The translations under genes were made by a program, and so were the position numbers. From a virus: DNA of 26,085 nucleotides. The stretch is from positions 1 through 26,085 of IMG/VR virus record IMGVR_UViG_3300012039_000025; one strand, written 5' to 3'. Position 1 is the first letter of the stretch. Each line of letters begins with the position of its first letter. Positions 381 to 20,675 of the stretch are shown piece after piece. The notes under the pieces are model-generated. The model saw only the letters and a list, made by a program, of their open reading frames with translations. It did not search any database and had not been told where the DNA came from.

Positions 381-417
381 TGTGTACCCACTACGTCAAA
401 ATAGACGACGCTTTAGG

Positions 418-490
418 CGCCCCCGGCGGGGTTCGAACCCGCGACAGGCGGATTAACAATCCGCTGTTCATGCCACTGAACTACGGGGGC
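418..490 (-). tRNA. tRNA-Asn (GTT anticodon)
   Basis: The minus strand folds into a complete 73-nt cloverleaf. The acceptor stem is GCCCCCG/CGGGGGC, the D stem GTTC/GAAC, the anticodon stem GCGGA/TCCGC with loop TTGTTAA (anticodon GTT, asparagine), and the T arm GCGGG-TTCGAAC-CCCGC, followed by discriminator G. CCA is not encoded. All stems pair perfectly. It lies in the GC-rich left segment, with its 3' end facing the transposase remnant. It may be a host tRNA or a phage tRNA. No integrase gene or duplicated tRNA 3' end (attachment site) is visible in the window. Confidence 0.93.
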
Positions 491-6143: not shown

Positions 6144-6144
6144 C

Positions 6145-6507
6145 ATGCTACCACGAGTATTCGTAGTCCAGAATCATCTTCGTTATGACCGGAACAGAGG
6201 CGACCTGGTCCCGAAGTATGACATTAGCCCAGCAGAAAAATTTGGAGAGTTTAAGTTCGTTCTGCCGCCCCGAGCGACTCTAGAAAACATTCCAGAGGTT
6301 CTCGGTCTAATGGAACGTTCTCTGTCTGATTACAGCGACAAAGACTCGCTACTCCTAATTGGCAATCCAGTATTCATCGGCTGGGCCGTTGCGATTGCAG
6401 CAAAGCATAATGGTGGCCGAGTTCGCTGCCTGTACTGGTCAGGCGGGACCCAGAGCTACGAAGTTGCCGCCGCAACAATTCCAGGGGTGGGAGTGATTCA
6501 TGCCTGA
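6145..6507 (+). CDS. Conserved phage protein next to SNF2 helicase
   Basis: A 120-residue protein, MLPRVFVVQNHLRYDRNRG at the N-terminus, then VPKYDISPAEKFGEF, then LLIGNPVFIGWAVAIAA and GGRVRCLYWSGG. I know this pattern from many tailed-phage genomes, where it follows or precedes the SNF2 helicase. No biochemical function is established to my knowledge. The GNP turn followed by a hydrophobic helix suggests a Rossmann-like fold. It starts 2 nt after the helicase stop and overlaps the next gene by 8 nt (ATGCCTGA), so the three are co-translated. Confidence 0.7.
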   Translation: MLPRVFVVQNHLRYDRNRGDLVPKYDISPAEKFGEFKFVLPPRATLENIPEVLGLMERSLSDYSDKDSLLLIGNPVFIGWAVAIAAKHNGGRVRCLYWSGGTQSYEVAAATIPGVGVIHA

Positions 6508-7048
6508 GGACGTTTACGCACGGTACAGAAAGGATCCACCGGCAACGGATATGCAACAGCTTCGATCGCTCGCGCAGAGACAGGTCGAAGCTGAGGTAGA
6601 GGTCGAAAAGGCAGAGATCGCTCTGAAGAAAGCGAAGGAAGCCCTAGAGACCGTCTCAGAAGAGCTCCTTCCGAATGAGATGGAACGAATTGGGCTCGAG
6701 ACATTTAAGACCAAGGAAGGTCTAAAGATCCAAGTCAGATCCACCATCTACTGCTCGATTCCGAAGGAAAAGAAGGAAGAAGCGATGCAGTGGCTGATTG
6801 ACAACCAGCAGGGCGGGATGATCAAGAGAGAAGTTCTTGTCTCCCTCACCCAGCAGGAGGAAGTTGAGGCGATGGCTCTCTTTCTGATCCTGAAGAAGGC
6901 GTTCCCGAATGTGAAGATTGACCGCTACGTTGAATCTTCAACAATGCGCGCCCACATCGCGGAGGAGCTTGAAGAGGGGCGACCCTTCCCTATGCAACTC
7001 TTTGGTGCCGGCGCCGTCAAGAAGGCCAAGGTAGAAGTTCCCGCCTGA
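6500..7048 (+). CDS. Coiled-coil conserved phage replication-region protein
   Basis: A 182-residue protein with a charged heptad-rich helix at residues 15-60 (LRSLAQRQVEAEVEVEKAE and onward, predicted coiled coil). It then has SEELLPNEMERIGLETFKT and a beta-rich KEGLKIQVRSTIYCSIPK domain. Small proteins of this layout (long N-terminal helix plus a compact domain) are frequent in phage early regions beside ssDNA-binding proteins, but the role is unknown. GGGAG lies about 7 nt before ATG 6500. The 3' end carries promoter P3 signals just after the stop codon. Confidence 0.65.
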   Translation: MPEDVYARYRKDPPATDMQQLRSLAQRQVEAEVEVEKAEIALKKAKEALETVSEELLPNEMERIGLETFKTKEGLKIQVRSTIYCSIPKEKKEEAMQWLIDNQQGGMIKREVLVSLTQQEEVEAMALFLILKKAFPNVKIDRYVESSTMRAHIAEELEEGRPFPMQLFGAGAVKKAKVEVPA

Positions 7049-7099
7049 TTGTCCCTGAGGCGGTAAAGTTACAGGGATGAACTAAGAACAAGGAACCTA
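7039..7099 (+). promoter_or_regulatory. Phage promoter P3 and GAAC leader motifs
   Basis: GGTAAAGTT (7062-7070, -10 TAAAGT at 7064-7069) matches the core of P2 exactly. The arms TCCCTG (7052-7057) and CAGGGA (7072-7077) enclose it. The expected -35 (7039-7046, TCCCGCCT) matches poorly and overlaps the end of the upstream gene. Two degenerate leader motifs, GAACAAG (7086-7092, 17 nt after the -10) and GAACCTA (7093-7099), lead to ATG 7103, with AAGGAA as ribosome binding site. Confidence 0.5.
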
Positions 7100-7102
7100 A
7101 GA

Positions 7103-7957
7103 ATGGTACGCAAGCGCAACGCATCACCCCCGCCCTCGTCAGAGCCAGCTGCCCAGGAGTCCCAGCTGCCGGTGAAGTATGACTACGGCCAGCACCAGGG
7201 CAAGGGCTTTGAGGGCACGAGTCAGGCAGACTTTGCTCTCCCGTTTCTCGGCGTGATTCAGTCGAACAGTCCGGAAGTGATCCAGGGTAAGCCGAAGTAC
7301 GACGACAAGGCAAAGCCTGGAATGCTCATCAATTCGGTGACTCGCGAGATCATCGACGGTGTCAAGGGCGTCTACTTCATCCCCTGCGCTACCCAGCACG
7401 TTTTCGTCGAGTTCCGGCCGCGTGCCCAGGGCGGAGGGTTCCAGGGCGTGCACCCCGTTGATTCTGATATCGTCACGACTGCGAAGAATGCTTCGAAGGA
7501 GTTCGGGGACTATAAGACGGATGAAGGCAATGAACTGACTGAGACCTTCTACGTCTTCGGTATCCGGCTCGCAGCCCCCGATTCTACGGAAGGAGTGGAG
7601 GCCGTCTGCGTCGCTTTCACCAGCACGAAGATCAAAGTCTACAAGCGGTTCATGCAGGTTCTTCGTTCGTACAAGGGGAAGCCCCCGCTCTTTGCGCATC
7701 GACTGCTACTTCGTTCGGTGCCTGATAAGAACGCCCAGGGCGACTTTTTCAACTTCGCGGTTGGTCCCGCCATCGACGACAGTACGGCGAAGTCCCTACT
7801 GCCGCCGGTTCTTGAGGACGGGAAGACCCCGAATCCATTGCTCGAAGAGTGCGCTGCACTGAGCGAGCAAATTGCTCAGGGTGCGCGTGGCGCTGATCAC
7901 GCTGCTGGTGCTGCCAGTGGTGAGTCGAGCGGCGCGAACGCCGACAAGCTCTTCTAA
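7103..7957 (+). CDS. Conserved phage protein, putative ssDNA-binding
   Basis: A 284-residue protein. A Pro/Ala/Ser-rich N-terminus (residues 1-25) is followed by FALPFLGVIQSNSPEV, KPGMLINSVTREII, VKGVYFIPC and FVEFRPRAQGGGFQG, a pattern shared with abundant phage early proteins often annotated as single-stranded DNA binding. The C-terminus is Ala/Gly/Ser-rich and flexible and ends Asp-Lys-Leu-Phe, like the flexible tail ending in Phe of SSB-type proteins. The family link is from memory of similar phage proteins, and DNA binding is inference. It has its own promoter (P3) and a good ribosome binding site, which fits high expression. A strong double hairpin follows (7947-8036). Confidence 0.6.
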   Translation: MVRKRNASPPPSSEPAAQESQLPVKYDYGQHQGKGFEGTSQADFALPFLGVIQSNSPEVIQGKPKYDDKAKPGMLINSVTREIIDGVKGVYFIPCATQHVFVEFRPRAQGGGFQGVHPVDSDIVTTAKNASKEFGDYKTDEGNELTETFYVFGIRLAAPDSTEGVEAVCVAFTSTKIKVYKRFMQVLRSYKGKPPLFAHRLLLRSVPDKNAQGDFFNFAVGPAIDDSTAKSLLPPVLEDGKTPNPLLEECAALSEQIAQGARGADHAAGAASGESSGANADKLF

Positions 7958-9266: not shown

Positions 9267-11783
9267 GTGGAAGGGCCGCAACTAGAGTTTTCGGACACGC
9301 TGCACGCTGAGAAGTACCGACACGGTGGGGAGACATTCAAGGAGGCAATGAACCGGGTCGCTTCGGCGCTCAAAGACAACGACGAGCATTACTTCAAGAC
9401 ACGCGACATCCTTCTCGGGATGCGCTTCTTGCCAGGTGGTAGGATCCAGTCAGCGATTGGGTCCTCCAAGCGAACGACGCCGTACAACTGCTTCGTCAGT
9501 GGAACCATCGAGGACTCCTTCGTCGATGGCCACGGCTCTATCATGGAGCGTGCGAAGGAAGCGGCGACTACGATGAGGATGGGAGGTGGAATCGGTTACG
9601 ACTTCAGCACGCTCCGCCCACGCGGCGCTCTGATCCGCAAGCTGAGTTCCAAGTCCTCTGGTCCGATATCCTTCATGGATATTTTCGACGCTATCTGCCG
9701 TTGCGTCGCCTCCTCTGGGCACCGGCGCGGAGCCCAGATGGGTGTTCTCCGCGTTGATCACCCAGATATCGAGGAATTCGTCCACGCGAAGCAAAATGGG
9801 ACGCGCCTTACGGGATTCAATATCTCGATCGCCGTGACTGACGGCTTCATGCAGTGCGTCGAGAGTGGCACCCCGTTCATGCTGAAGTTTGCTGGAGAGA
9901 ACTACCGCGAGATTGATGCTCGCGCTCTCTGGGAACAAATCATGCGCTCGACTTGGGACTGGGCGGAACCTGGCGTCCTATTCATCGACGCGATCAACCG
10001 CATGAATAACCTGTACTATTGCGAACAGATCGCTGCGACGAATCCCTGTTTCACTGGTGATACTCATGTATGGACAGCAGAGTATGGACCTGTCCAGTTC
10101 TCGACTCTCGCTGAGGCTAACCCGGAAAGTGTCCTCGTCCTAACACAGCTTCCTGATGGTAAACTTGTCTATCGAAAAATGGCTAACATTCGTCGGACTG
10201 CGACCAAAGCAAAGTTAGTTAGGATTAAGCTTGATAATGGTGGCGAGATTCGTTGTACTCCTAATCACGTTTTCTATATGCGTGATGGTAGTGAGTGCAA
10301 AGCAAAGGATCTACAGCCTAAGGATTCTTTGGCATCCGTCTATAGGCATAAGGCCAATTCGAAAGGGTACTTAAACCTTTTGAACGGAATTGTTCACCCA
10401 CTTGAACATCATGTCCCGTTTGAAGGAATTAAGGGTCTTGGATCTAAAGTCCATACCCATCATATCAACGGCAAGAAAGGCGATAACAGGCCTTCGAATC
10501 TAGAGGTCATCGACTCTACTGAGCACCAGCGTCTTCATATGTCTGGTGACTCTAATCCTTTAAGAAGGATGCCGGGCAGAAACCCAATGAAGCTTTTCCC
10601 AGATTGCACACGAGGGCCAAAGAATGGCCGTTGGAGAGATGAAGTCTCCACGGAAAAAATTCTTGAGCTTCGTGGGTCTGGTCTTAGCTTCAACAAAATT
10701 GCGAAGCAAGTTGGTTGCTCGAAGTACACGGTTCAGCATCGGATCAAGACGGCTAACCATAAGGTCATCTCTGTCGAATTCCTCGAAGAAGTAGAAGATG
10801 TCTTTTGTGGAACTGTCGAAGAAACTAATCGTTTCTTCATCCAAACCGGCAAGAACGACGGCGTCCTCGTACATAACTGCGGGGAGCAACCTTTACCTCC
10901 TTATGGTGCTTGTCTACTTGGCTCCTTTAACCTCGCCAAATACGTGGATAAGAATGACAATAACGCGTTCCGCCTCGGCATGCTTGAGGAGGACATCCCG
11001 CATGTTGTTCGCGCGATGGATAATGTCGTAGACCGCGCTGTCTATCCGCTCTATGAGCAGGAGAAAGAAGCGCGGAGTAAGCGACGGATGGGTCTGGGCG
11101 TAACGGGTCTCGCGAATGCGTGTGAAGCACAGGGCCTTAAATATGGAACTCCTGAATTCATTAGCCTGACTGAAACCATCCTAAGAATAATCAAGGAAGG
11201 ATGTTACCGAGCTTCCATCGACTTAGCAAAGGAGAAAGGTTCCTTCCCTAAGTATGAGGATGAGTATCTCGATGGGCAGTTCATTCGAAGTCTCAGCGAA
11301 GAAACTCGTGCTGGAATTAAACGACACGGTATTCGCAACTCGCACTTGACGTCTATCGCCCCGACTGGCACGATTAGCCTGTGCGCTGATAACGTCTCTA
11401 GCGGAATCGAACCTGTCTTTTCTCACAAGACAGAACGGACCGTCATCGAGTTCGAAGGACCTCGTAAAATCACGGTCGAGGATTATGGCGTTAAGAACTT
11501 TGGCGTGTTCGGTAAGAAGGCGGCGGATGTAAGTATCGACGAGCATCTTGCCGTGCTCGTCGCTGCCTCTAAACACGTAGACTCCTCCGTGTCAAAGACT
11601 TGCAACGTCCCAGCTTCCACAAAATGGGAAGATTTCAAGAATCTTTATTTCCAGGCTTGGAAGAATGGCTGTAAAGGTTGTACGACGTTTCAGATGGAAG
11701 GGAAACGCGCACCGATTTTGAAGGACGTTGAGCCTTCATCCTGCGCGTTCGATCCGGCTACTGGCCGTCGAGACTGCAACTAA
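9267..11783 (+). CDS. nrdJ: Class II ribonucleotide reductase with intein
   Basis: An 838-residue precursor of adenosylcobalamin-dependent ribonucleotide reductase, which makes deoxynucleotides. Family marks: LLGMRFLPGGRIQSA (near residue 50), PYNCFVSG, RMGGGIGYDFS, SSGHRRGAQMGVL, NPCGEQPLPPYG (split by the intein), SHLTSIAPTGTISL and NGCKGCTTFQ. The C-terminus has the two-cysteine tail SSCAFDPATGRRDC, used for re-reduction. Residues 261-537 are an intein; the mature enzyme would be 561 residues without an ATP-cone, so probably simply regulated. Start GTG 9267 has AGGAG 6 nt upstream, at the stop of the helicase gene. The intein sits directly before the cysteine of NPCGEQ, which by family knowledge is the thiyl-radical residue, so no activity is expected before splicing. 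Confidence 0.92.
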   Translation: MEGPQLEFSDTLHAEKYRHGGETFKEAMNRVASALKDNDEHYFKTRDILLGMRFLPGGRIQSAIGSSKRTTPYNCFVSGTIEDSFVDGHGSIMERAKEAATTMRMGGGIGYDFSTLRPRGALIRKLSSKSSGPISFMDIFDAICRCVASSGHRRGAQMGVLRVDHPDIEEFVHAKQNGTRLTGFNISIAVTDGFMQCVESGTPFMLKFAGENYREIDARALWEQIMRSTWDWAEPGVLFIDAINRMNNLYYCEQIAATNPCFTGDTHVWTAEYGPVQFSTLAEANPESVLVLTQLPDGKLVYRKMANIRRTATKAKLVRIKLDNGGEIRCTPNHVFYMRDGSECKAKDLQPKDSLASVYRHKANSKGYLNLLNGIVHPLEHHVPFEGIKGLGSKVHTHHINGKKGDNRPSNLEVIDSTEHQRLHMSGDSNPLRRMPGRNPMKLFPDCTRGPKNGRWRDEVSTEKILELRGSGLSFNKIAKQVGCSKYTVQHRIKTANHKVISVEFLEEVEDVFCGTVEETNRFFIQTGKNDGVLVHNCGEQPLPPYGACLLGSFNLAKYVDKNDNNAFRLGMLEEDIPHVVRAMDNVVDRAVYPLYEQEKEARSKRRMGLGVTGLANACEAQGLKYGTPEFISLTETILRIIKEGCYRASIDLAKEKGSFPKYEDEYLDGQFIRSLSEETRAGIKRHGIRNSHLTSIAPTGTISLCADNVSSGIEPVFSHKTERTVIEFEGPRKITVEDYGVKNFGVFGKKAADVSIDEHLAVLVAASKHVDSSVSKTCNVPASTKWEDFKNLYFQAWKNGCKGCTTFQMEGKRAPILKDVEPSSCAFDPATGRRDCN
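10047..10877 (+). mobile_element. Intein with HNH homing endonuclease in RNR
   Basis: A 277-residue in-frame insertion. It begins with Cys (CFTGDTHVWT, block A) and ends VLVHN before the extein Cys (block G). Block B is RCTPNHVFYM and block F is VFCGTVEETNRFFI. Between them lies an HNH-type nuclease (HTHHINGKKGDNRPSNLEV, near 10,455-10,510). A helix-turn-helix (ILELRGSGLSFNKIAKQVG), probably for DNA recognition, follows. All splice residues (first Cys, Thr and His of block B, terminal His-Asn, +1 Cys) are present, so splicing should work. The codons for the extein flanks Asn-Pro and Cys-Gly-Glu-Gln would form the homing site in intein-less alleles. Confidence 0.93.
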
Positions 11784-11795
11784 GGGGGATTGGCG

Positions 11796-12563
11796 ATGGC
11801 GGGCAAGATCGACATTTCGGTTATAACCCTAGGCACAGAACCCGAGGAGGCTGGCCTATTCGAGATGTTGAATCGGATTCCTAAATCTATTACGATCTCG
11901 ACGATCGAAAGATCTTACACGACCTTCTCTCTTTCTCTTGCTAAAGCGTGCCAAGCTAGGGAAAGGCAGTGCCTCTTCTTTACTTCTGGCGGCCCAGAGT
12001 CACGGCACGCCGAAGCCGCGGCACACGGCGCGATCCCGATGTTGATTGAGCGCGCTAAGCTCAGTGAACAAGAAGCAATCGTCCGGTTCTTCATTAAGAA
12101 GAACGGCATCGGCGAGAGCCTGATTCTCTGGGACTGGAGCGACTGCCTAGAGATAACGAAGACGATCCGGGAGCGGCTTCTTACCCATCCTGACATGTTT
12201 GGGACATATGGTCATGTCCTGGTTCAAGACGACTCAGGGAGGGCGGTCTCTGCCCTTCTTTCGCTTATATTCAGGAATATGCCCTTTGCTTTCACTGTTT
12301 GTGCGTATCTAAGCCATAAGCCAACTTCCGGCTTCCTAGACCACTACCGCAAGAAGATCATAAAGGAAGCTGTAGATCTTGGCGTTCAGATCAGCGGCTC
12401 TAACTTGCATATTATTCATGATGACTATGTTCTGAACGAGATGTCAGAGCCAGGAGATGATCCACCTCATGGCTTGGATCTTGATCGCCGATACGGACTC
12501 AAAGCATATCGCTGGGCCGGTCGGAAGTTAACCGGCAAAGTTCTTCTGGTGGCCCAGAGATGA
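11796..12563 (+). CDS. Unknown protein at head of hypermodification locus
   Basis: A 255-residue protein I do not recognise. ATG 11796 has GGGGGA 6 nt upstream; the in-frame TTG at 11790 lies in that ribosome binding site. Alternating beta strands and helices (KIDISVITLG, CLFFTSGGPESRHAEAAAHGA, HVLVQDDSGRAVSALLSLI) suggest an alpha/beta fold with two glycine- or serine-rich turns that could hold a phosphate or cofactor. No P-loop, SAM-binding, radical-SAM or clear PLP-lysine motif can be named. It overlaps the amino acid:DNA transferase-like gene by 4 nt (ATGA) and lies directly after ribonucleotide reductase. The context points to a step in thymidine hypermodification: an additional transferase, decarboxylase or amine supply. 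Confidence 0.75.
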   Translation: MAGKIDISVITLGTEPEEAGLFEMLNRIPKSITISTIERSYTTFSLSLAKACQARERQCLFFTSGGPESRHAEAAAHGAIPMLIERAKLSEQEAIVRFFIKKNGIGESLILWDWSDCLEITKTIRERLLTHPDMFGTYGHVLVQDDSGRAVSALLSLIFRNMPFAFTVCAYLSHKPTSGFLDHYRKKIIKEAVDLGVQISGSNLHIIHDDYVLNEMSEPGDDPPHGLDLDRRYGLKAYRWAGRKLTGKVLLVAQR

Positions 12564-13645
12564 CCCTATCACCTGGGCTCGACTTCCGGAAGAAGGAATA
12601 CCGAAGAGAAACATTCCTTCGGTTCTATGAATTTCATCTTCGGTACAAGTCCCATCCCGGTGGTGTGTACTATCTAATACCATTCCTTCGAGAGCGGTAT
12701 AAGTGGGATGATGAGCAGACGCTCTTCTTCTGTTTCCTCAACGGTAACACGCAGAACCCAGTTACAAGTTGGCTCCTCTTCAATGCAGGCAAGGATGATC
12801 TTGGATCGTTGAAGAAGTTCTACGAGGAGAACTATGGCCGTCTTCAGTACGACACCGATCGACGGCACCATAAACCTTTCCTTATGGAGTCTTTGGCGTC
12901 GTATTATAATCTCCTTGGAGATTATAGTCAGAAGAAGTTCTTGGACCAAATTGCAGATGGTGGTTTCTCCGCCATCTGGGACGCGGCGACTTCTGTCTAC
13001 ACCTTTGGCCGACTCTCAGCCTTCTCATACAGCGAATACCTTAAAATCGCTGGTGTCAAATTCGACTGCGACACACTCTTCCTTCACGATATGAGCGGTA
13101 GTAAGTCGCACAGGAACGGTCTCTGCATCGTTACTGGGAGAGATGAGTATGACTGGCACCATTCAAATCCAATGTTCGGAGGCGATTATCCGCCGGGTCT
13201 GGTGGAGACACTTATCCAAGAGGCAGATGAAATACTGGCTGAGGTACATGAGCGAGGTGCTATGGGTAGTAAGGATGCGAACCTCTTCACCCTTGAGAGC
13301 GCTCTATGCACGTACAAAAGCTGGCATCGGCCGAATCGTAGGTATCCAAACGTCTACAACGACCTCATGCACGATCGTATTTGTGCTGCCGAGTATTCAT
13401 GGCCCGAGATAGACTTCTCGGTGTTCTGGGAGGCTCGGACAAAGTATCTTCCCTCTTATCTAAGGTTGGAAGATACTCTGTCCGATCCTGGCTGTGTCCC
13501 CGTCAAGCAGAACCACTACCTACGCACGGGTCAGCCGATTATGATGGATATAGAGCACGAGTGCTTCAAGAATAGCTTTAACGATGGCGTTAGGAACGCG
13601 GATGGGGAGCCTTCTCGCCTCCGCAAATTCTGGAGAAGGAAATGA
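12560..13645 (+). CDS. Amino acid:DNA transferase (ADDT)-like protein
   Basis: A 361-residue protein matching, from memory, the phage family predicted by comparative genomics to transfer amino acids to activated hydroxymethyl-uracil in DNA. Marks: FLRFYEFHLRYKSHPGGVYY near residue 20, FLNGNTQNPVTSWLL near residue 53, DTDRRHHKPF, TFGRLSAFSYSEYLKIAG, DMSGSKSHRNGLC, and ALCTYKSWHRPNRRYPNVYND near residue 255. The all-helical, His/Arg/Tyr-rich character suits DNA binding, but catalytic residues are not assigned. It may instead be a sister helical family from the same pathway (the kinase-associated helical domain); the neighbourhood role is the same. ATGA overlap upstream and a 4-nt overlap downstream place it in one operon. 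Three alternative hairpins lie inside the gene. Confidence 0.7.
   Translation: MTLSPGLDFRKKEYRRETFLRFYEFHLRYKSHPGGVYYLIPFLRERYKWDDEQTLFFCFLNGNTQNPVTSWLLFNAGKDDLGSLKKFYEENYGRLQYDTDRRHHKPFLMESLASYYNLLGDYSQKKFLDQIADGGFSAIWDAATSVYTFGRLSAFSYSEYLKIAGVKFDCDTLFLHDMSGSKSHRNGLCIVTGRDEYDWHHSNPMFGGDYPPGLVETLIQEADEILAEVHERGAMGSKDANLFTLESALCTYKSWHRPNRRYPNVYNDLMHDRICAAEYSWPEIDFSVFWEARTKYLPSYLRLEDTLSDPGCVPVKQNHYLRTGQPIMMDIEHECFKNSFNDGVRNADGEPSRLRKFWRRK
12905..12926. repeat. Intragenic perfect hairpin, 10 bp, 2-nt centre
   Basis: TATAATCTCC (12905-12914) and its exact complement (12917-12926), separated by TT, lie inside the transferase-like gene. Nearby, at 12593-12620, GAAGGAAT/ATTCCTTC and ACCGAAG/CTTCGGT form two mutually exclusive hairpins. 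Confidence 0.9.
13435..13485. repeat. Intragenic two-part hairpin, 16 bp
   Basis: TCGGAC (13435-13440) pairs with 13480-13485; after a 2x2 internal loop, AGTATCTTCC (13443-13452) pairs with 13468-13477. The loop is 15 nt. It lies near the 3' end of the transferase-like gene. Confidence 0.9.
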
Positions 13646-13932
13646 CGGATCAGCAGGAGCAGCAGCCGGACAAGATTGAAGAACTTGATTGTGGCTGTAA
13701 GAACCACTACTACGGCGAAAAGAAGGCTACTGCCCCATGTAAGGGCTGCGCCACTCTCACAATTGGTAATCATCTCATGACGATTGCTAATTCTCTTGCT
13801 GGCATTGCTTCTGTCCTGATCGCTGCTGGGACGAAGGACTCTGTTGATCGAGCGAATTCTAAGAAAGCGTCTGAGCAGAGAGAATTCGAAGCGATCAGGA
13901 ATAAGATCGCTCCGACTCTGAGGAAAGTGTGA
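13642..13932 (+). CDS. Small Cys-cluster protein in hypermodification locus
   Basis: A 96-residue protein with an N-terminal cysteine cluster (CGCKNHYYGEKKATAPC then KGC, residues 17-36, C-x-C-x14-C-x2-C), suited to one zinc or an iron-sulfur site. A mildly hydrophobic helix (LMTIANSLAGIASVLIAAG) and a charged C-terminal helix follow. Not recognised. GGAGAAGGA precedes ATG 13642, which overlaps the upstream stop (ATGA), and its own stop overlaps the kinase start. Its place between the transferase-like and kinase genes suggests a partner of one of them. Confidence 0.65.
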   Translation: MTDQQEQQPDKIEELDCGCKNHYYGEKKATAPCKGCATLTIGNHLMTIANSLAGIASVLIAAGTKDSVDRANSKKASEQREFEAIRNKIAPTLRKV

Positions 13933-14513
13933 TGTTCGTTAATATTCGCGGCACCAACGGCTCAGGAAAGACGACTCTTGCTCGAAAGTTTCTCGAGCAA
14001 GCGGTTAGGGTGCTGGACCTAGGACCGCTTATCTGCCCTTTAAGTGGGAAGTCGGTTATCATCCCAGGGCACGTGACTGGGGATGGGATCTGTGTGATTG
14101 GCAGCTATAAGATGATGTCCGGTGGTCTTGATTCAATCAAGAGCACCGACACCCAAAGGGACGCCATCCGTCTTGCAGTCAAAACAGATGGCGTTAAGCA
14201 CGTCCTCGCGGAAGGAGCTCTTGCCTCCGGTCTTTTCTCCTCGTGGTACGAATTCGCTGCTGAATTTCCGACCACCTGGGCTTACCTCGAAACTTCTCCT
14301 GAAGAGTGTGTCAAAAGGATCTACGCCAGGAACGGTGGCAAGGCCTTCCAAGAGAAGAATGTTCGTCACAAGCATGACGCCGTTCGCTCAACGAGGCGGA
14401 AGGCGATGCAGAGCCAACGAGTCAAGGTTCTAGATCTTCCAGCAGGTCAAGAGTATCAGACGCTCGTGAAGTATCTCTGGGACTGTGAGATGGCGGTCAA
14501 TGCTCTACCCTGA
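13932..14513 (+). CDS. 5-hydroxymethyl-dU DNA kinase (HMUDK)-like P-loop kinase
   Basis: A 193-residue P-loop kinase: MFVNIRGTNGSGKTTLARKF carries Walker A (GTNGSGKT, residues 7-14), IGSYKMMSGGLDSIKSTD is a family-typical substrate region, and HVLAEGALAS is the Walker B-like strand. LETSPEECVKRIYARNGGK is the lid region with arginines. This pattern matches phage kinases that phosphorylate 5-hydroxymethyl-uracil already in DNA, the activating step of thymidine hypermodification. ATG 13932 follows GAGGAAA by about 7 nt and overlaps the upstream stop (ATGA); an in-frame GTG three bases earlier is less likely. The neighbours on both sides are the expected next enzymes. Confidence 0.8.
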   Translation: MFVNIRGTNGSGKTTLARKFLEQAVRVLDLGPLICPLSGKSVIIPGHVTGDGICVIGSYKMMSGGLDSIKSTDTQRDAIRLAVKTDGVKHVLAEGALASGLFSSWYEFAAEFPTTWAYLETSPEECVKRIYARNGGKAFQEKNVRHKHDAVRSTRRKAMQSQRVKVLDLPAGQEYQTLVKYLWDCEMAVNALP

Positions 14514-15417
14514 ACCGCTCTGGTACTGGATGACGGAGCGTGAGAAAATCCGTCAAAACCGAATGGCAGGAATACGCCCTCCGTTTACGCAGGACGTTAT
14601 CTTGCAGACCTTTAAGTTCTGCAATGTGTTCCGGGAGCATGATCGCGTTACGACTTGGATCCGTGAAAACATTCGAGAGCCCTATGACAAGCATCCAAAT
14701 TTGTTTGTGATGCTCGGCATGGCTAGAATCTACAACCTCCCAGAGACACTTCAAGCTCTCATTGACGGTGGACCTGAGACGTGGCCGGTTATCTCGCGCG
14801 CTTTTGATTCTCGCGCCGTTACGAAACTGACGCAGGAGCGTAAGGATCAAGGTCGTAAGATCTATACGGGTGCCTACATGATTAGCGCACCGAGCAGCCC
14901 AAGTAACCTGTGGTTCGGCCAGTCGAAGCAGGCCTACATCGCAGAAGGAGTGGTTGGTGGCCTCTTCGCAAGGCGACGCGACTGCCCATTCCGTCATTCT
15001 AGCGACTCTCCGCTTCCACTTGAAGGTGCTTGGTCCTGGATGCGTACGAATAAGCTTCTTGGGTGGGGACCGTTCATGTCCTATGAGCTTGTTACGGACG
15101 CTCGATGGACCTCTCTCCTCCGTTGTTCGCCCGACATTGACTCCTGGGCTAATGCAGGTCCTGGAGCCATCAGAGGGCTCCGTCGGCTCCTACGAGAGGA
15201 CGGCCGTCTACGGGGAGTACCCTCGCCCACGGTCTCTAGAGCCGAGGCTCTACCGCTTATGCAGAGGCTCTTAGAGGAGGCCCCCCGGAACCTTCCTAGG
15301 TGGTTCCCACGTCTCGAAATGCGGGATATCCAGCATAGTCTCTGTGAGGTTGATAAATATCTCAGAGTGAAGCACGGAGAGGGAAGACCACGTTCTGTGT
15401 TCCATGGAGCAGCATGA
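14500..15417 (+). CDS. Alpha-glutamyl/putrescinyl thymine pyrophosphorylase-like protein
   Basis: A 305-residue helical protein of the DNA-glycosylase-like fold class used in thymidine hypermodification (aGPT-Pplase clade 2). Marks: MTEREKIRQNRMAG, PPFTQDVILQTFKFCNVFRE with HDRVTTWIRENIRE, KIYTGAYMIS, GWGPFMSYELVTDARW, and the C-terminal CEVDKYLRVKHGEGRPRS. The family is predicted or shown to displace pyrophosphate from activated hydroxymethyl-uracil and attach an amino acid or polyamine. ATG 14500 lies 14 bp inside the kinase gene. An in-frame GTG at 14485 and ATG 14531 are alternatives; the family match begins near the latter. Its C-terminal third is rich in Arg and Leu. Confidence 0.75.
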   Translation: MLYPEPLWYWMTEREKIRQNRMAGIRPPFTQDVILQTFKFCNVFREHDRVTTWIRENIREPYDKHPNLFVMLGMARIYNLPETLQALIDGGPETWPVISRAFDSRAVTKLTQERKDQGRKIYTGAYMISAPSSPSNLWFGQSKQAYIAEGVVGGLFARRRDCPFRHSSDSPLPLEGAWSWMRTNKLLGWGPFMSYELVTDARWTSLLRCSPDIDSWANAGPGAIRGLRRLLREDGRLRGVPSPTVSRAEALPLMQRLLEEAPRNLPRWFPRLEMRDIQHSLCEVDKYLRVKHGEGRPRSVFHGAA

Positions 15418-15418
15418 C

Positions 15419-15682
15419 ATGGAAGAGAATGGAGTAAGACTTAGCGATTACGTTAAGCAGCAATTCCTTGAAGGCAAATTCCCAGCAGAAGGGGAATTTG
15501 TCGGAAATGTCAGAATTACGGTTCAAGATACTTACAAAAGAAAGTGTCTTCTAGTCGAAGTTGTTGACGAGAAAGGTAACCCCCTTTTGTCATTCGTTTC
15601 GAGATTACTAATGAACGGGGAGTACCTCCTGTTCCCTTCAGACTGGAAGTTCAGAATTCCGTTTAAACTCACTACCACTTAG
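15419..15682 (+). CDS. Small hypothetical protein
   Basis: An 87-residue protein, MEENGVRLSDYVKQQFLEG at the N-terminus, then a beta-rich segment (GNVRITVQDTYKRKCLLVEVV). No family recognised. I chose ATG 15419 because GGAG (15406-15409) is at a proper distance. ATG 15404 in the same frame lacks a ribosome binding site. It starts 2 nt after the preceding stop and probably belongs to the hypermodification operon. A 9-bp perfect hairpin (15475-15483 with 15492-15500) lies inside. Confidence 0.55.
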   Translation: MEENGVRLSDYVKQQFLEGKFPAEGEFVGNVRITVQDTYKRKCLLVEVVDEKGNPLLSFVSRLLMNGEYLLFPSDWKFRIPFKLTTT

Positions 15683-15691
15683 GAGAACCCA
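15664..15691 (+). promoter_or_regulatory. Candidate -10 and GAACCCA leader before TS homologue
   Basis: TAAACT (15664-15669) equals the -10 of P1. GAACCCA (15685-15691) begins 16 nt later and abuts ATG 15692; with the preceding AGGA it forms the ribosome binding region, as at 4577-4586. No -35 octamer is visible 17 bp upstream, so promoter activity is uncertain, but the leader is clear. Confidence 0.4.
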
Positions 15692-16741
15692 ATGTACGTC
15701 TTCCAAGGAAGGAATGCACAACAGATCCTTCCGCGTGTTGCCCAGCACATGAAGCTGTACGGCGTGGAACGCGAAAGCCGGAACGGGAAGGTGAAGGTCT
15801 TCCCGTATCCAGTCACAACGGTATACGAGCGGCCGCAAGAACGTGTTATCTTTTCGAAAAGCAGAAAAGCTAACCCGTTCTTTCACTTCTTCGAAGCTCT
15901 CTGGATGCTGGATGGGCGTAAGGACGTATCCTGGATCGAGTTCTACAACTCGACCTTCGGCCAGTTCAGCGACGATGGACTGACGTTCAACGGCGCTTAT
16001 GGTGCTCGTTGGCGCAGCCATTTTGGTTATGACCAACTAGAACGTATCGCCAGCGCCCTAGCTGAGCATAAGGACGACCGTCGTCAAGTTCTCACAATGT
16101 GGGACGCTCGATTGGACCTGGGCCTTGCCAGCAAGGATGTGCCGTGCAATACGCACTGTTACTTCCAGGTTGGGACGTCTGGATCGTTGGACCTGTTCGT
16201 TTCGAATAGGTCCAACGACATGATCTGGGGAACCTACGGCTCAAACGTAGTTCACTTTTCTATGCTGTTAGAATTTATGGCCACGCGCATCGGCGTGCCG
16301 GTTGGAAAGTATTACCAGGTCTCGATGAACACGCACATCTACGAGCGGCACTTTTCGTTGCTGAATGACTTACCTTCAGAGGTAGGTCTATTCGGCGATG
16401 AGAAAACCTGGAAGACTAGCAAGATTAAGGAGACGGATCCATACGTTGTGCGTCCTGGCGAAATCATTTCCATGGTGAAGAATGGGGAGTCAGCTTCTGA
16501 CTGGCGCAACGACCTCAGCCAGTTCATGAAGAACGAGCCTTCAATCTACGTGACTCGATTCTTTAATGAAGTTGCATCTCCTCTCAGAGCAGCCTGGGCT
16601 CTATTTAAGAAAAAGAGCGAGGACCGCTTCGATAGCGCTCTTGAAGCGCTAGGACGGTGCGCAGCGTCTGATTGGGCTCTTGCGTGCAGGGACTTCATTC
16701 ACGAAAGGAGAGCCAATGCTGTCACCAGAAAAGAAGGCTGA
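15692..16741 (+). CDS. Thymidylate synthase homologue, probable dUMP hydroxymethylase
   Basis: A 349-residue thymidylate synthase superfamily protein. The nucleophile loop DVPCNTHCYFQV, the phosphate/nucleotide segment SNRSNDMIWGTYGSNVV and the YQVSMNTHIYERH strand align with TS and dCMP/dUMP hydroxymethylases. The asparagine kept in GSNVV points to a uracil substrate. The family uses methylene-tetrahydrofolate; with water instead of hydride as final acceptor it yields 5-hydroxymethyl-dUMP. The choice of dUMP hydroxymethylase over true TS rests on the neighbouring kinase, transferase and pyrophosphorylase genes, not on a residue I can prove diagnostic. AGGAGAACCCA gives the start at ATG 15692. 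The last 26 bp overlap the HD gene. A 16-bp hairpin sits over the catalytic region (16184-16218). Confidence 0.85.
   Translation: MYVFQGRNAQQILPRVAQHMKLYGVERESRNGKVKVFPYPVTTVYERPQERVIFSKSRKANPFFHFFEALWMLDGRKDVSWIEFYNSTFGQFSDDGLTFNGAYGARWRSHFGYDQLERIASALAEHKDDRRQVLTMWDARLDLGLASKDVPCNTHCYFQVGTSGSLDLFVSNRSNDMIWGTYGSNVVHFSMLLEFMATRIGVPVGKYYQVSMNTHIYERHFSLLNDLPSEVGLFGDEKTWKTSKIKETDPYVVRPGEIISMVKNGESASDWRNDLSQFMKNEPSIYVTRFFNEVASPLRAAWALFKKKSEDRFDSALEALGRCAASDWALACRDFIHERRANAVTRKEG
16184..16218. repeat. Intragenic hairpin, 16 bp, 3-nt loop
   Basis: TCGTTGGACCT (16184-16194) pairs with 16208-16218; a G-U pair and TTCG/CGAA extend it to a TTT loop (16200-16202). It precedes the conserved RSND codons of the TS homologue. 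A second short hairpin with one G-U (16367-16375 with 16380-16388) lies downstream. Confidence 0.9.
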
Positions 16742-17252
16742 GAAGCTCCTCTTTCTAAGAGAAGCGGGTGCTGTGGAACGGTCACATGCGTGTCCGCATC
16801 ACGGATCGTATAGCATCGCCCAGCACTCGTTCCAAATGGCAATGATCGTTCTAACGTATCACCCGTCACCTTCCTTAGCGGTGCTTGAAGCTGTGCTTCT
16901 TCACGATGTCCACGAGAGGGTGACGGGTGATATTCCGGCTCCAGCACGGTGGTCCTCTCCTGAGCTAAAGGAAGCAGAGCATGGTCTACGGGATCTCCTT
17001 CGGAAGAAGCACGAGATCATGCTTGAACTTCCTGCAGACGAGAAGGCTTGGCTTAACTCAGCCGACCGCCTCGAGCTATTCCTCTGGGCAAGGGACCAGC
17101 TAGCCTTTGGTAATCGCCATATTGAAGGAATCATCGAAGAGCTCAAAAGCTGGTTTCGTGAGAGCTGGTCTCGCGTCCCAGACGAATTGAAGCCAGTCGT
17201 AAAGTCCTTGACGGACATGACGACATGGAAGAGGGGGAGCGATCGACCGTGA
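16716..17252 (+). CDS. HD-domain 5'-deoxynucleotidase (YfbR-like)
   Basis: A 178-residue HD-domain phosphohydrolase. Metal-binding residues lie in SIAQHSFQMA (His), LLHDVHERVTGDIPAPARW (His-Asp) and LNSADRLELFLWA (Asp), the arrangement of YfbR-type nucleotidases that dephosphorylate deoxynucleoside monophosphates. GAAAGGAG precedes ATG 16716, within the end of the TS-homologue gene. In phages that replace thymine, dTMP must be removed and dUMP kept, so this enzyme may clear dTMP or tune dUMP; that is inference from context. It is followed by a GTGA overlap with the next gene. A long-range 14-bp inverted repeat (16857-16870 with 16919-16932) lies inside. Confidence 0.75.
   Translation: MLSPEKKAEKLLFLREAGAVERSHACPHHGSYSIAQHSFQMAMIVLTYHPSPSLAVLEAVLLHDVHERVTGDIPAPARWSSPELKEAEHGLRDLLRKKHEIMLELPADEKAWLNSADRLELFLWARDQLAFGNRHIEGIIEELKSWFRESWSRVPDELKPVVKSLTDMTTWKRGSDRP
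16857..16932. repeat. Intragenic inverted repeat, 14 bp, 48-nt loop
   Basis: TATCACCCGTCACC (16857-16870) is the exact complement of 16919-16932; the second arm lies in the HD-motif codons of the nucleotidase gene. Confidence 0.9.
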
Positions 17253-17578
17253 GCGACTACATCGACCATCTTTCTGAGATCGGCGCGGAAGATGCCGCTG
17301 GATTGAAAAAGGCCCAAGAGTCGTATGGGGACTCCTGGAAGAAGCGTGGCGGTACTGGTGCCTTCATGATGCTGGCCAGAAAGATGGACAGATTGGAACT
17401 TCAAGCAAAGAATTTCAATTATGACATCTTTGTTGCGATTGAAGAAGATACCCGTGCCGAAGGGATCATCGACGACATCCGCGACCTTCGTCGCTACCTG
17501 ATGCTCGTCGAGGCAGAGATGCGCGCCCAGGGAGCGATGTCGGCCAAGTCAACGCATCGGGATAACTCTAATGCCTGA
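17249..17578 (+). CDS. Small conserved phage protein, DUF1599/Nmad-like
   Basis: A 109-residue helical protein. SYGDSWKKRGGTGAFMMLARK followed by MDRLELQ and EGIIDDIRDLRRYLMLVEAEM resembles small all-helical proteins (DUF1599, 'nucleotide modification associated') found with phage nucleotide-modification genes. The assignment is from motif memory only. GTG 17249 overlaps the upstream stop (GTGA) and has GAGGGGGAG upstream; an ATG at 17225 would sit before that ribosome binding site. Possibly a nucleotide-binding or nucleotide-pool protein in the MazG-like manner. Confidence 0.55.
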   Translation: MSDYIDHLSEIGAEDAAGLKKAQESYGDSWKKRGGTGAFMMLARKMDRLELQAKNFNYDIFVAIEEDTRAEGIIDDIRDLRRYLMLVEAEMRAQGAMSAKSTHRDNSNA

Positions 17579-18119: not shown

Positions 18120-18310
18120 AGAAGCTAGGCGACAAGGATCGGATGCCGTTTGGAAAGTATAACGGAAAGACCATGGAAGAGGTCCCAGCGGGATATCTTC
18201 TTTGGCTAGATACTGAGTTGGAGGAGCAAACTCTTCTTAACGAGGCGCAGCAAGCTGTTAGGGAGTACATTGACGACAACCGTTCGGTGCTCGAGAGCGA
18301 ATCGAAATGA
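18116..18310 (+). CDS. DUF3820 small protein
   Basis: A 64-residue protein. MPFGKYNGKTMEEVPAGYLLWL is the signature of DUF3820, a small family common in phages and bacteria next to DEDD exonucleases or polymerases. Function not established; it may bind nucleic acid. GTG 18116 overlaps the exonuclease stop (GTGA), and its own stop overlaps the polymerase start (ATGA), so exonuclease, DUF3820 and polymerase are probably made together. Confidence 0.8.
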   Translation: MKKLGDKDRMPFGKYNGKTMEEVPAGYLLWLDTELEEQTLLNEAQQAVREYIDDNRSVLESESK

Positions 18311-20226
18311 CGCTCCAGCATCCAATGTTTAAGCCTAAGATAGAATGGGCGCCACCCACGATGGCAAGTATGCCCTCGTGGGCGGGCGCAGGGAGGGTCT
18401 CAATTGACCTCGAAACGCGCGACGAAAAGCTCTCGAGTCTGGGCCCAGGGGTTAGGCGAGGTGCGTATATCGTTGGCATTGGATTTGCCATCGAAGACGG
18501 TCCTGCGCACTATCTACCGATCCGACATCTCGAAGGTGATAACCTCCCTGATGGGCAGGTTATTTCGTACTTCAAAAATCAAGCTAAAGTCTTTACAGGT
18601 GACTTGGCCGGCACTAATCTCCAATATGACCTTGACTACCTCCTCCAAGAGGGAATCGAGTTCAAACCGCGTTTCTTCCGCGACGTCCAAATCGCGGAGC
18701 CGATCCTCGACGAGCTCCAAGACTCTTACTCGCTGGATAGCATCGCCGGACGCTACGACCTCCCTGGTAAGGAAATGCGGACGATCTCAGACGCTGCATC
18801 GGCATACGGATTTGTTGGGTCCGAGTTCTGGCGTAACCTCTGGAAGCTCCCAGCACGATACGTCGCGGACTATTGCGTACAGGACGCACGCCTCCCCCTT
18901 ACTATTCTCAGGAAGCAAGAGTCTAAGATCGACGAAGAAGAGCTCTGGGAGATCTACAACCTCGAATCGAAGCTGATGCCCGTCCTCCTTCGCATGAAGA
19001 GGAGGGGGATCAGATTTAGTCCGGATCGTCTAGAGAGGGTGGAGAAATGGTCTCTAGAAGAAGAGACTAAAGCACTCGAGACGGTCCGGGCTGAAACCGG
19101 AGTCCGAATTCAACCCGGCGAATGCATGAAAGCTGAGTTGCTGGCGAGGGCGCTGAAAACGATTGGGGTTGAAGCACCTCTAACCGAAAAGACTCGTAAG
19201 CCTAGCATCGATAAAGAGTTCCTGGCTTCGGTGGATCACCCCGTCGCGCGCGCGTTGGAGCGCGCACGAAGAGTGAACAAAGTTCGTTCGACCTTTGTTG
19301 AGTCGATTCGTACGCACGCGATCGGGGATCGAGTGCATTGCGGCTTCAATCAGCTTAGGAGGGAGAAGGATGAAAAAGAAAGCTACGGGGAAGGTGCTCT
19401 TGCTGGGGCCGCTTACGGCAGAATATCTTCTGAACACCCGAACATGCAGCAACAACCTGCCAGGGATCCGGAGATCGGTCCACTCTGGCGCTCGATCTAT
19501 GTTCCGGAAGACGGTGAAAGTTGGGCAGTCCTTGATTTCTCTCAGCAGGAACCCCGAATTCTTACGCACGGTGCGGAGCTTGCTGGGTGCGTTGGAGCTT
19601 ACGAAGCCGCCGAGCGATACCGTAAAGATCCTTCAACAGACAATCACGCTATGCTTCGAGACATGCTTCGGTGGGAAGGTAAGACAGGACGAGATCGAGC
19701 TAAGAATATCTTCCTTGGGCTCTGTTACGGTATGGGGGAAGCAAAACTTTGTCGCCAGGTGGATCTCCCTACCAAGTGGGAGTATTCATCGAAGTACAAG
19801 AGAACGATCGAGGTTGCTGGGCCAGAAGGCAAAGCACTCCTCGATGAATTCAATCGTCTTGTGCCGTACCCCAGACAGCTCGCTCGCATCATTCAGCGCC
19901 TCGCAGACCAACGTGGATTCATTCGAACACTTGGCGGGAGACGGTGCCGGTTCCCACGCAAACAGGACGGCACCTTCGACTGGACGCACAAAGCGCTCAA
20001 TCGCTGGGTCCAAGGCTCGTCTGCGGATCAGGTAAAGATCAGTATGGTCCGTGCAGACGAAGCGGGCTATCAGCTTCGCCTGCAGGTTCACGATGAACTT
20101 GATCTCTCAGCACCTTGTAGGGAAAGTGTCGAGGGTCTAGCCGAAATCATGCGGAGCAGCCTCGACCTCAATGTCCCCTCGAAGGTGGACATTGAGGTCG
20201 GACCAAGTTGGGGGGAATGCAAGTGA
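18307..20226 (+). CDS. Family A DNA polymerase (PolA-type)
   Basis: A 639-residue replicative polymerase without the 5' nuclease domain. The 3'-5' proofreading domain has SIDLETRD (Exo I), GTNLQYDLDYL (Exo II) and YCVQDA (Exo III), all carboxylates present. The polymerase domain has motif A DFSQQEPRIL (near residue 409), motif B RDRAKNIFLGLCYG (462-475) and motif C LQVHDELDL (near 594). In motif B the residue equivalent to E. coli Phe762 is Leu (residue 470), the Leu762 class known from environmental phages and linked to slower or temperate replication. It should copy DNA containing hydroxymethyl-uracil. ATGA overlap upstream; the end overlaps the deaminase start (GTGA). A 14-bp hairpin lies just before the stop (20163-20200). 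Confidence 0.95.
   Translation: MTLQHPMFKPKIEWAPPTMASMPSWAGAGRVSIDLETRDEKLSSLGPGVRRGAYIVGIGFAIEDGPAHYLPIRHLEGDNLPDGQVISYFKNQAKVFTGDLAGTNLQYDLDYLLQEGIEFKPRFFRDVQIAEPILDELQDSYSLDSIAGRYDLPGKEMRTISDAASAYGFVGSEFWRNLWKLPARYVADYCVQDARLPLTILRKQESKIDEEELWEIYNLESKLMPVLLRMKRRGIRFSPDRLERVEKWSLEEETKALETVRAETGVRIQPGECMKAELLARALKTIGVEAPLTEKTRKPSIDKEFLASVDHPVARALERARRVNKVRSTFVESIRTHAIGDRVHCGFNQLRREKDEKESYGEGALAGAAYGRISSEHPNMQQQPARDPEIGPLWRSIYVPEDGESWAVLDFSQQEPRILTHGAELAGCVGAYEAAERYRKDPSTDNHAMLRDMLRWEGKTGRDRAKNIFLGLCYGMGEAKLCRQVDLPTKWEYSSKYKRTIEVAGPEGKALLDEFNRLVPYPRQLARIIQRLADQRGFIRTLGGRRCRFPRKQDGTFDWTHKALNRWVQGSSADQVKISMVRADEAGYQLRLQVHDELDLSAPCRESVEGLAEIMRSSLDLNVPSKVDIEVGPSWGECK
20163..20200. repeat. Intragenic perfect hairpin, 14 bp, 10-nt loop
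   Basis: CGACCTCAATGTCC (20163-20176) is the exact complement of 20187-20200, at the 3' end of the polymerase gene, just before the deaminase ribosome binding site (20210-20216). A role in translation coupling or mRNA processing is possible. Confidence 0.9.
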
Positions 20227-20675
20227 CAGATGGAACGTTCTACAAGTGGGACGAACGGTTTCTTAAGCTCGCGAAGGAGATCTCGAAATGGTCTAAGGAC
20301 CCCAGCACAAAAGTTGGCTGTGTGCTAACAGATCACAATAGGCACGTTATCTCAACAGGCTACAACGGATTCCCACCAGGGGTGGTCGATCGCCCAGAGT
20401 GGCTTGCAGACCGCGACACGAAGCTCCTGTTCACGATTCACGCGGAGATGAACGCGGTACTGCAAGCACGGAGAGACCTCCGTGGCTGTAACGTGTACGT
20501 CTCGGTCCCTTTCATCTGTAAGGAGTGCGCACGTAACTTGATCGGTGCTGGAGTTGGTCGAATCTGCGTTGCTGGCGGAGAAACCCCGACACGGTGGAAG
20601 GACGAATGGGAGAAGTCCCTAGAGATCTTCGGGGCCTCGACCGTTGAACTGATCGAAGAGTCCATCGATGTCTGA
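20223..20675 (+). CDS. dCMP deaminase
   Basis: A 150-residue zinc-dependent dCMP deaminase, converting dCMP to dUMP. Zinc and proton-shuttle residues are in TIHAEMNAVLQA (His, Glu) and VPFICKECARNLIGAG (Cys-x-x-Cys); the N-terminal DPSTKVGCV and GYNGFPPGV are family marks. GTG 20223 is chosen because GGGGGGA lies 6 nt upstream and the codon overlaps the polymerase stop (GTGA). ATG 20217 would abut the ribosome binding site. It would supply dUMP for the TS homologue at 15692. Confidence 0.9.
   Translation: MTDGTFYKWDERFLKLAKEISKWSKDPSTKVGCVLTDHNRHVISTGYNGFPPGVVDRPEWLADRDTKLLFTIHAEMNAVLQARRDLRGCNVYVSVPFICKECARNLIGAGVGRICVAGGETPTRWKDEWEKSLEIFGASTVELIEESIDV

Follow-up and report, generated by a model that had tools for sequence, protein, structure and literature searches.

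The DNA of Pseudomonas phage M6 is reported to contain 5-NedU (PMC6449724) and that of Salmonella phage ViI 5-(2-aminoethoxy)methyl-deoxyuridine (dU; PMC6449724, PMC11721090). According to a further report, the cassette of the M6-like phage SN1 comprises a hydroxymethylase, Nmad5, aGPT-Pplase1, a kinase, a radical SAM enzyme (rSAM), a pyridoxal-phosphate (PLP) enzyme and aGPT-Pplase2 (PMC9476957). Here we analyse a predicted thymidine-hypermodification locus at positions 11796–17578 of IMG/VR record IMGVR_UViG_3300012039_000025, the whole of which (26,085 bases) is called the window below. Fold-type-II PLP enzymes are thought to decarboxylate the amino acid in M6 and ViI. The locus holds an amino acid:DNA transferase (ADDT) that groups with that of ViI, in a gene order very similar to that of the Pseudomonas phages M6 and YuA, next to a protein, P1, predicted to be a PLP-fold pseudoenzyme. 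It very probably makes a hypermodified thymine of some kind. In our preferred reading, to which we give a probability of about 0.5, the pathway stops at an undecarboxylated amino acid on thymine, following a module swap.

A 50-kb contig (G001) matches bases 151–25975 of the window at 99.8%, and a second contig of 56 kb (G002) overlaps this stretch and runs beyond it; four IMG/VR contigs carry the whole or part of the locus at 99.5–99.8% DNA identity. Nine plus-strand genes make up the locus:

11796..12563, plus strand: P1, diverged relative of the M6/YuA fold-type-II PLP enzyme (YuA gp11, M6 gp52), predicted pseudoenzyme (hhalign, tblastn and BLASTP, AF2 model, fold match, motif loss)
12560..13645, plus strand: P2, ADDT of the ViI-type clade, older name aGPT-Pplase2 (PF18724, E = 3.2e-14; phrog_3271, 7.8e-72; profile search and tree)
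13642..13932, plus strand: P3, small cysteine-containing protein (phmmer match to L205:971-1234, 5.1e-6)
13929..14513, plus strand: P4, P-loop 5-hydroxymethyl-dU (5-hmdU) DNA kinase (HMUDK) with Walker A motif GTNGSGKTT (PF18748, HMUDK_HMUD1, 5.8e-14)
14500..15417, plus strand: P5, HMUDK helical-domain protein, older name aGPT-Pplase1, with the ATG at 14500 as preferred start (PF18723, HMUDK_hel, 4.2e-49)
15404..15682, plus strand: P6, 92-residue protein (a weak match only, 0.017, to a PHROG of unknown function)
15692..16741, plus strand: P7, thymidylate synthase homologue, predicted dUMP 5-hydroxymethylase (phrog_5131, 4.5e-114)
16716..17252, plus strand: P8, HD-domain nucleotidase, YfbR-like (PF13023, 6.1e-9; PF12917, 5.8e-8)
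17225..17578, plus strand: P9, conserved protein after the HD gene, with a YGDSWKKRGG motif (52 matches at E≤1 among the open reading frames (ORFs) searched, own copies apart)

An earlier note, made from the letters of the window, had named a thymidylate synthase homologue, a kinase of the 5-hmdU DNA kinase type, an ADDT-like protein and an HD nucleotidase; all are present and intact (P7, P4, P2 and P8), with the PF18724 match of P2 above the cut-off. Its aGPT-pyrophosphorylase-like gene exists too, as P5, under what is now the Pfam name HMUDK_hel; phage records label P5 homologues by both names. The genes do overlap their neighbours, by 4 to 28 nucleotides, as that note described, except that P6 and P7 lie 9 nucleotides apart with the preferred starts. 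Its reading of the whole as a hypermodification locus gains support from Pfam, which places P2, P4 and P5 in modification families, and from synteny with YuA and M6.

On sequence comparison P2 groups with the ADDT of ViI and not with those of M6, PaMx11 or phiW-14. When P2 and its homologues in Magpie and Montesquieu are combined in a profile, it retrieves the ViI ADDT at 8.7e-38 over nearly its full length. M6, PaMx11, phiW-14 and Rhizobium phage TM26 yield no match to this profile at E≤0.1, although all four contain a member of the Pfam ADDT family. ViI-type and M6-type ADDTs split at 100/100 in a 39-row tree in which the ViI and phiW-14 branches are long and the bootstrap is not settled. 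The P2-type profile, of which P2 is itself a member, gives P2 555 bits, whereas the M6-type profile does not report it. P2 keeps the residues that are invariant among its relatives, and is 40–58% identical to the ADDTs of Montesquieu, Magpie and IMG/VR loci among the rows listed. Searches for relatives covered the best 80 of 146, the best 80 of at least 586 and the best 80 of 309 loci.

In the loci examined, the two ADDT clades occur with different PLP partners. Because the Pfam profile PALP misses M41-type PLP enzymes (it gives no match in Montesquieu), two purpose-made profiles, M41-type and gp11-type, were added. The PLP enzyme of ViI matches the M41 profile (9.8e-99) and retains an NGSKLR lysine motif; that of M6 is of the gp11 type (1.8e-124). 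A fold-type-II PLP gene is found in 60 of 77 P2-type loci and none in 17, a count that excludes our phage's own copies (L041–L043) and in which many loci are short contigs. After dereplication by identical ADDT, 50 of 69 P2-type loci carry an M41/ViI-type PLP enzyme and none was detected in 19, a row that includes the own copies L003 and L005 as well as Magpie. Among 71 dereplicated M6-type loci, a gp11-type enzyme was detected in 39 and none in 32. Cross pairs number zero in both sets. Since 27 loci were gathered with gp11 itself as query, 39 of 71 overstates the frequency of gp11, while the absence of cross pairs is unaffected. In L085 (2302–4437) a single 711-residue frame fuses an M41-type PLP enzyme (residues 1–312) to a P2-type ADDT (344–705), which ties the PLP and transferase steps together. 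The 77 P2-type loci also contain, at E≤1e-3, a kinase (67), a synthase or TET-like gene (56), both (50) or neither (4); the TET-like gene is present in 48, and Magpie gp2 matches Tet_JBP at 5e-6, under the Pfam cut-off.

Fifteen of these 77 loci hold a further family that by eye resembles a Rossmann methyltransferase, with for example an EPMAGVGLS motif (L078:5261-5992, L083:1586-2374, L105:4477-5217, L112:7062-7817 and relatives); the four members scanned have no Pfam match. Its gene overlaps or touches the ADDT gene in 14 of the 15, and eight of the 15 fall among the 17 loci that lack a PLP gene. By this genomic position the family is a candidate alternative tailoring enzyme.

The earlier note left two genes of the locus without assignment. 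One of them, P1, can now be placed as a remote relative of the M6-type (gp11) PLP enzyme, as judged from sequence and a structural model. P1 has no match in Pfam, PHROGs or NCBIfam, none by tblastn at E≤0.1 in 50,697 phage records, and weak scattered matches only in a PDB sequence search (best 0.23); a profile of P1 plus gp11 rows finds nothing in the PDB at 0.001. Among 14,946 ORFs, however, phmmer retrieves, own copies apart, only four gp11-type proteins (E 0.007–0.08). Aligned as a single sequence by hhalign to 43 gp11 relatives, P1 reaches a score of 43.8 over 206 columns, compared with 31.3 for the best of 200 shuffles and 25.6 for the best of 598 unrelated ORFs; the control draw was 600, two of which proved to be copies of P1 and scored like it. 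P1 was also tried as an M41-type enzyme and rejected, with an hhalign score of 17.7. A pattern scan followed by tblastn confirmed three of 114 gp11-pattern stretches as nearer relatives of P1 (L316–L318). BLASTP matches these three at E 1.2e-4 to 0.002, the best over 230 residues; all are gp11-type proteins that keep the lysine and lie near M6-type ADDT and radical SAM genes. Ten of the 11 BLASTP matches of P1 at E≤1 are gp11-type. A contig scan with P1 as query gave 29 pattern matches, none of them confirmed.

AF2 models P1 at pLDDT 39 with its own near-identical copies and at 82 with 28 gp11 relatives. Foldseek matches this model best to C. jejuni Cj0600 (7.1e-9), then to D-cysteine desulfhydrase (from 4.4e-8) and ACC deaminase, with TM about 0.5–0.6; VIA-align gives D-cysteine desulfhydrase as best (Z 14.6, rmsd 4.8, 248 residues aligned).

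P1 has lost the residues expected of an active site. All 43 relatives keep the lysine of FSKxRG, the HS pair and the threonine of SSGT; P1 keeps none of them, and reads DSGR and YT at the SSGT and HS sites. The FSKxRG lysine is presumably the Schiff-base lysine, to judge from the fold family. Over its length P1 matches 13 of the 53 columns conserved in at least 93% of relatives, distributed as 2 of 14 in the first 60 positions, then 2 of 8, 2 of 11 and, in the last part, 7 of 20. A lysine segment in another frame just upstream of P1 was considered and rejected, as the motif is absent there. From these losses we predict that P1 is a pseudoenzyme without a cofactor site. The earlier note had seen no PLP enzyme, which held for an enzyme with its active-site motifs and missed the PLP-fold relative.

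No replacement for it was detected. In G001 and G002, which cover most of the window, the PALP, M41-type, gp11-type and radical SAM profiles match nothing at E≤1; the same profiles recover the expected genes in YuA or M6, ViI or Montesquieu. Radical SAM PF04055 is found in YuA but not in G001 or G002, which may be incomplete. The earlier note, too, had seen no radical SAM enzyme.

The remaining enzymes would supply and activate the modified base. P7 is 45% identical to YuA gp17, the record of which notes 'putative deoxyuridylate hydroxymethyltransferase'. Its closest solved relative in a PDB sequence search is a CMP 5-hydroxymethylase, which we take to be MilA. In alignments the catalytic Cys is conserved in P7 (residue 152). 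An Asp of the CMP hydroxymethylase corresponds to Asn (185) in P7, and a Trp of bacterial thymidylate synthase corresponds to Phe (89). The Asn of thymidylate synthase selects uracil, and loss of the Trp favours hydroxymethylation. P7 scores 39–73 bits against NCBIfam thymidylate synthase equivalog cut-offs of 108–427, and lies above the broader cut-off of PF00303. P7 is thus probably a dUMP hydroxymethylase. P4 is 37% identical to YuA gp13 and has no PDB sequence match; those of P5 and P2 are weak only.

The contig L205 suggests how the locus may have arisen. Its P5 homologue, at 53% identity, is the closest found (best 80 of 309 loci), and its gene order is radical SAM, P3 homologue, kinase, helical protein, synthase, so that the P3 homologue sits between the radical SAM and kinase genes. 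The radical SAM protein is 67% identical to YuA gp12 and of the M6 type. P2 occupies the position of this gene, with P1 on P2's other side. The simplest account would be that the M6-type ADDT and radical SAM genes gave way to a ViI-type ADDT. Such a swap would leave P1 without a substrate, free to decay or to take on a non-catalytic role.

A pathway can be proposed from these assignments. dCMP deaminase would supply dUMP, which P7 would turn into 5-hydroxymethyl-dUMP, and the phage polymerase would build this into DNA, where it would replace some of the thymine. The hydroxymethyl group would then be phosphorylated within DNA by P4 together with P5, and P2 would exchange the phosphate for a free amino acid. 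A first guess is serine, linked via its side-chain oxygen, because ViI makes 5-(2-aminoethoxy)methyl-dU, which resembles a decarboxylated O-linked serine. As the only PLP-fold protein found is M6-type, lacks the motifs and stands beside a ViI-type transferase, no decarboxylation would follow. The end product would be an amino-acyl thymine; for serine, 5-(O-seryl)methyl-dU. The sequence itself shows the gene families, their clades, the synteny and the lost motifs; from these the enzyme activities, the choice of amino acid, the final base and the history are inferred. The full combination, in which the amino acid is attached whole through its side chain by a ViI-type transferase in an M6-type cassette and the former decarboxylase is kept as a dead partner, is a tentative proposal and unlikely to hold in every part.

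Several points weigh against this preferred reading. The alignment of P1 with gp11 is ambiguous near the lysine, with a deletion in one version and Glu17 in another. Only three of the 114 gp11-pattern stretches passed tblastn against P1, the remaining BLASTP match of the 11 (0.26) is an ADDT and not gp11-type, P1 goes unreported by the gp11 and M41 HMMER profiles, and the gp11 genome search did not recover it in G001 or G002. The model of P1 is not independent, because gp11 rows were used to build it. L205 ends inside its radical SAM gene, so the swap rests on one partial contig. P2 is only 25% identical to the ViI ADDT, and the amino acid may therefore differ. All copies of P1 compared have an unbroken frame, and a single residue differs, in G002; an intact frame and a start coupled to its neighbours suggest that P1 may be useful and not decaying. 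Finally, the contigs may be incomplete, and a tailoring enzyme could come from the host or from genome sequence not covered by them.

This last point leads to a complete, decarboxylating pathway, in which P1 is active though diverged or a PLP enzyme comes from the host or from missing phage sequence, and 5-NeOmdU, the base of ViI, or a similar one is made. The PLP gene in 60 of 77 P2-type loci, the intact frame of P1, a fold predicted to be retained (in a model that drew on its relatives) and the survival of some conserved C-terminal residues would agree with this. Yet P1 lacks the lysine and cofactor-loop residues that no relative has lost and most of the highly conserved columns (13 of 53 matched), and the sister contigs hold no other PLP match, which makes such a pathway rather unlikely. 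A possible, if doubtful, variant that is compatible with our preferred reading makes P1 a repurposed pseudoenzyme, a partner that holds the ADDT, the kinase or the modified DNA. P1 is intact and nearly invariant across contigs, overlaps P2 by 4 nucleotides and keeps 7 of 20 conserved C-terminal columns compared with 2 of 14 in the lysine-bearing N-terminal part, and L085 encodes PLP enzyme and ADDT as a single protein; however, copies that differ by one amino-acid change are too alike to gauge selection on P1.

The locus might instead make 5-hmdU or its phosphorylated form only, with P2 inactive or directed at another target. P2 is a distant member of PF18724, but it keeps the residues invariant in its relatives, and P2-type loci regularly include a kinase (67 of 77) and a synthase or TET-like gene (56 of 77), so we regard this outcome as improbable. 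Least probable is that P7 is an ordinary thymidylate synthase in a nucleotide-metabolism operon without base modification. P7 does match thymidylate synthase families, above the PF00303 cut-off, but it falls short of every NCBIfam equivalog cut-off, is closest to the MilA hydroxymethylase and lies beside the kinase, helical and ADDT genes of a modification pathway. Our preferred reading remains that of an amino-acyl thymine left undecarboxylated after a module swap.

Neither Pfam nor the loci searched give a match to P6 at E≤1. P8 is a relative of YuA gp18 (4.9e-34). The YGDSWKKRGG motif of P9 resembles, by eye only, a stretch in the C-terminal part of a Montesquieu synthase fusion (L012:3971-5521); phmmer does not report the pair, and a shared small domain is possible. 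The 5-hmdU DNA kinases of M6 (gp54, L283:11686-12249) and Vi01 (Vi01_061, L040:38203-38865) are labelled 'terminase small subunit', as is phrog_800. Both proteins match PF18748 (7.7e-18 and 2.6e-116), and the label is likely a spreading misannotation.

Between the window and G001, P5 (15 synonymous, 1 nonsynonymous) and P7 (8 and 1) differ mostly by synonymous changes, as expected for working genes, and P6 departs from this pattern (4 and 6). Most of the differences bunch at 14400–16700, across P4–P7, possibly a recombination patch inside the modification genes. Upstream of the locus lie a helicase and ribonucleotide reductase; downstream are an exonuclease, DNA polymerase A, dCMP deaminase and a primase-helicase-like protein. 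Three of these neighbours bear on the comparison or the pathway:

9267..11783, plus strand: ribonucleotide reductase with intein, upstream neighbour as in YuA/M6 (PF02867, 2.2e-106; PF14890, 1.3e-14)
18307..20226, plus strand: DNA polymerase A, downstream neighbour as in YuA/M6 (PF00476, 3.3e-42)
20208..20675, plus strand: dCMP deaminase, putative dUMP supplier (PF00383, 6.1e-18)

The intein of the reductase has HNH and helix-turn-helix parts. Further upstream, three consecutive genes at 6106–7957 match the families of Pam3 phage gp32, gp33 and gp34, and a tRNA-Asn gene (416–490, minus strand) lies near the left end of the window, in the stretch common to G001. Outside the window, 33 ORFs of at least 110 residues were listed and 10 of them scanned with Pfam; five matched (a Mu F-like head protein, a terminase domain, a MazG/PRA-PH protein and two other domains) and five of the 10 did not.

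The analysis suggests that transferase clade and missing decarboxylase together can predict a specific base mass from sequence alone, and that the pairing of ADDT and PLP clades offers a rule for guessing the hypermodified base of an uncultured phage. The phage studied here is an exception to that rule, which suggests that modules can be swapped, and its DNA may carry a bulkier, not yet known base. We know of no description of 5-(O-seryl)methyl-dU, which would be a zwitterionic base. If the reading is correct, a thymine bearing both a free carboxylate and a free amine would offer a useful handle for chemistry and may stop a different set of restriction enzymes, and P1 would be a PLP-fold pseudoenzyme within a phage DNA-modification pathway; the titles and abstract openings of the hypermodification and PLP literature searched mention none of its kind.

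The locus type itself is known, and each described system shares part of it. With YuA and M6 it has in common a very similar gene order, the hydroxymethylase, a split kinase and helical protein, the HD gene, and polymerase and deaminase downstream. Unlike in those phages, a radical SAM gene was not found here, the ADDT is of the other clade, and the PLP-type protein lacks its motifs and precedes the ADDT instead of following it. ViI shares the ADDT clade and has an adjacent pair of thymidylate synthase homologue and HMUDK kinase, as well as HMUDK_hel; its modification genes, however, are scattered over the genome, and its M41-type PLP enzyme with lysine motif has no counterpart detected here. 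The P2-type ADDT is also shared with Montesquieu (a Glutamicibacter phage), Magpie (a Mycobacterium phage, in which no PALP, M41-type or gp11-type PLP match was found) and IMG/VR loci, most of which differ in having the fold-type-II PLP gene and, in many, the TET-like gene. L205 shares the P3–kinase–helical–synthase order, has a P3 homologue and carries the closest P5 found, and differs in having an M6-type radical SAM gene at the position of P2. What appears to be new, as far as sequence comparison can tell, is a ViI-type transferase on an M6-type chassis together with a dead PLP-fold protein.

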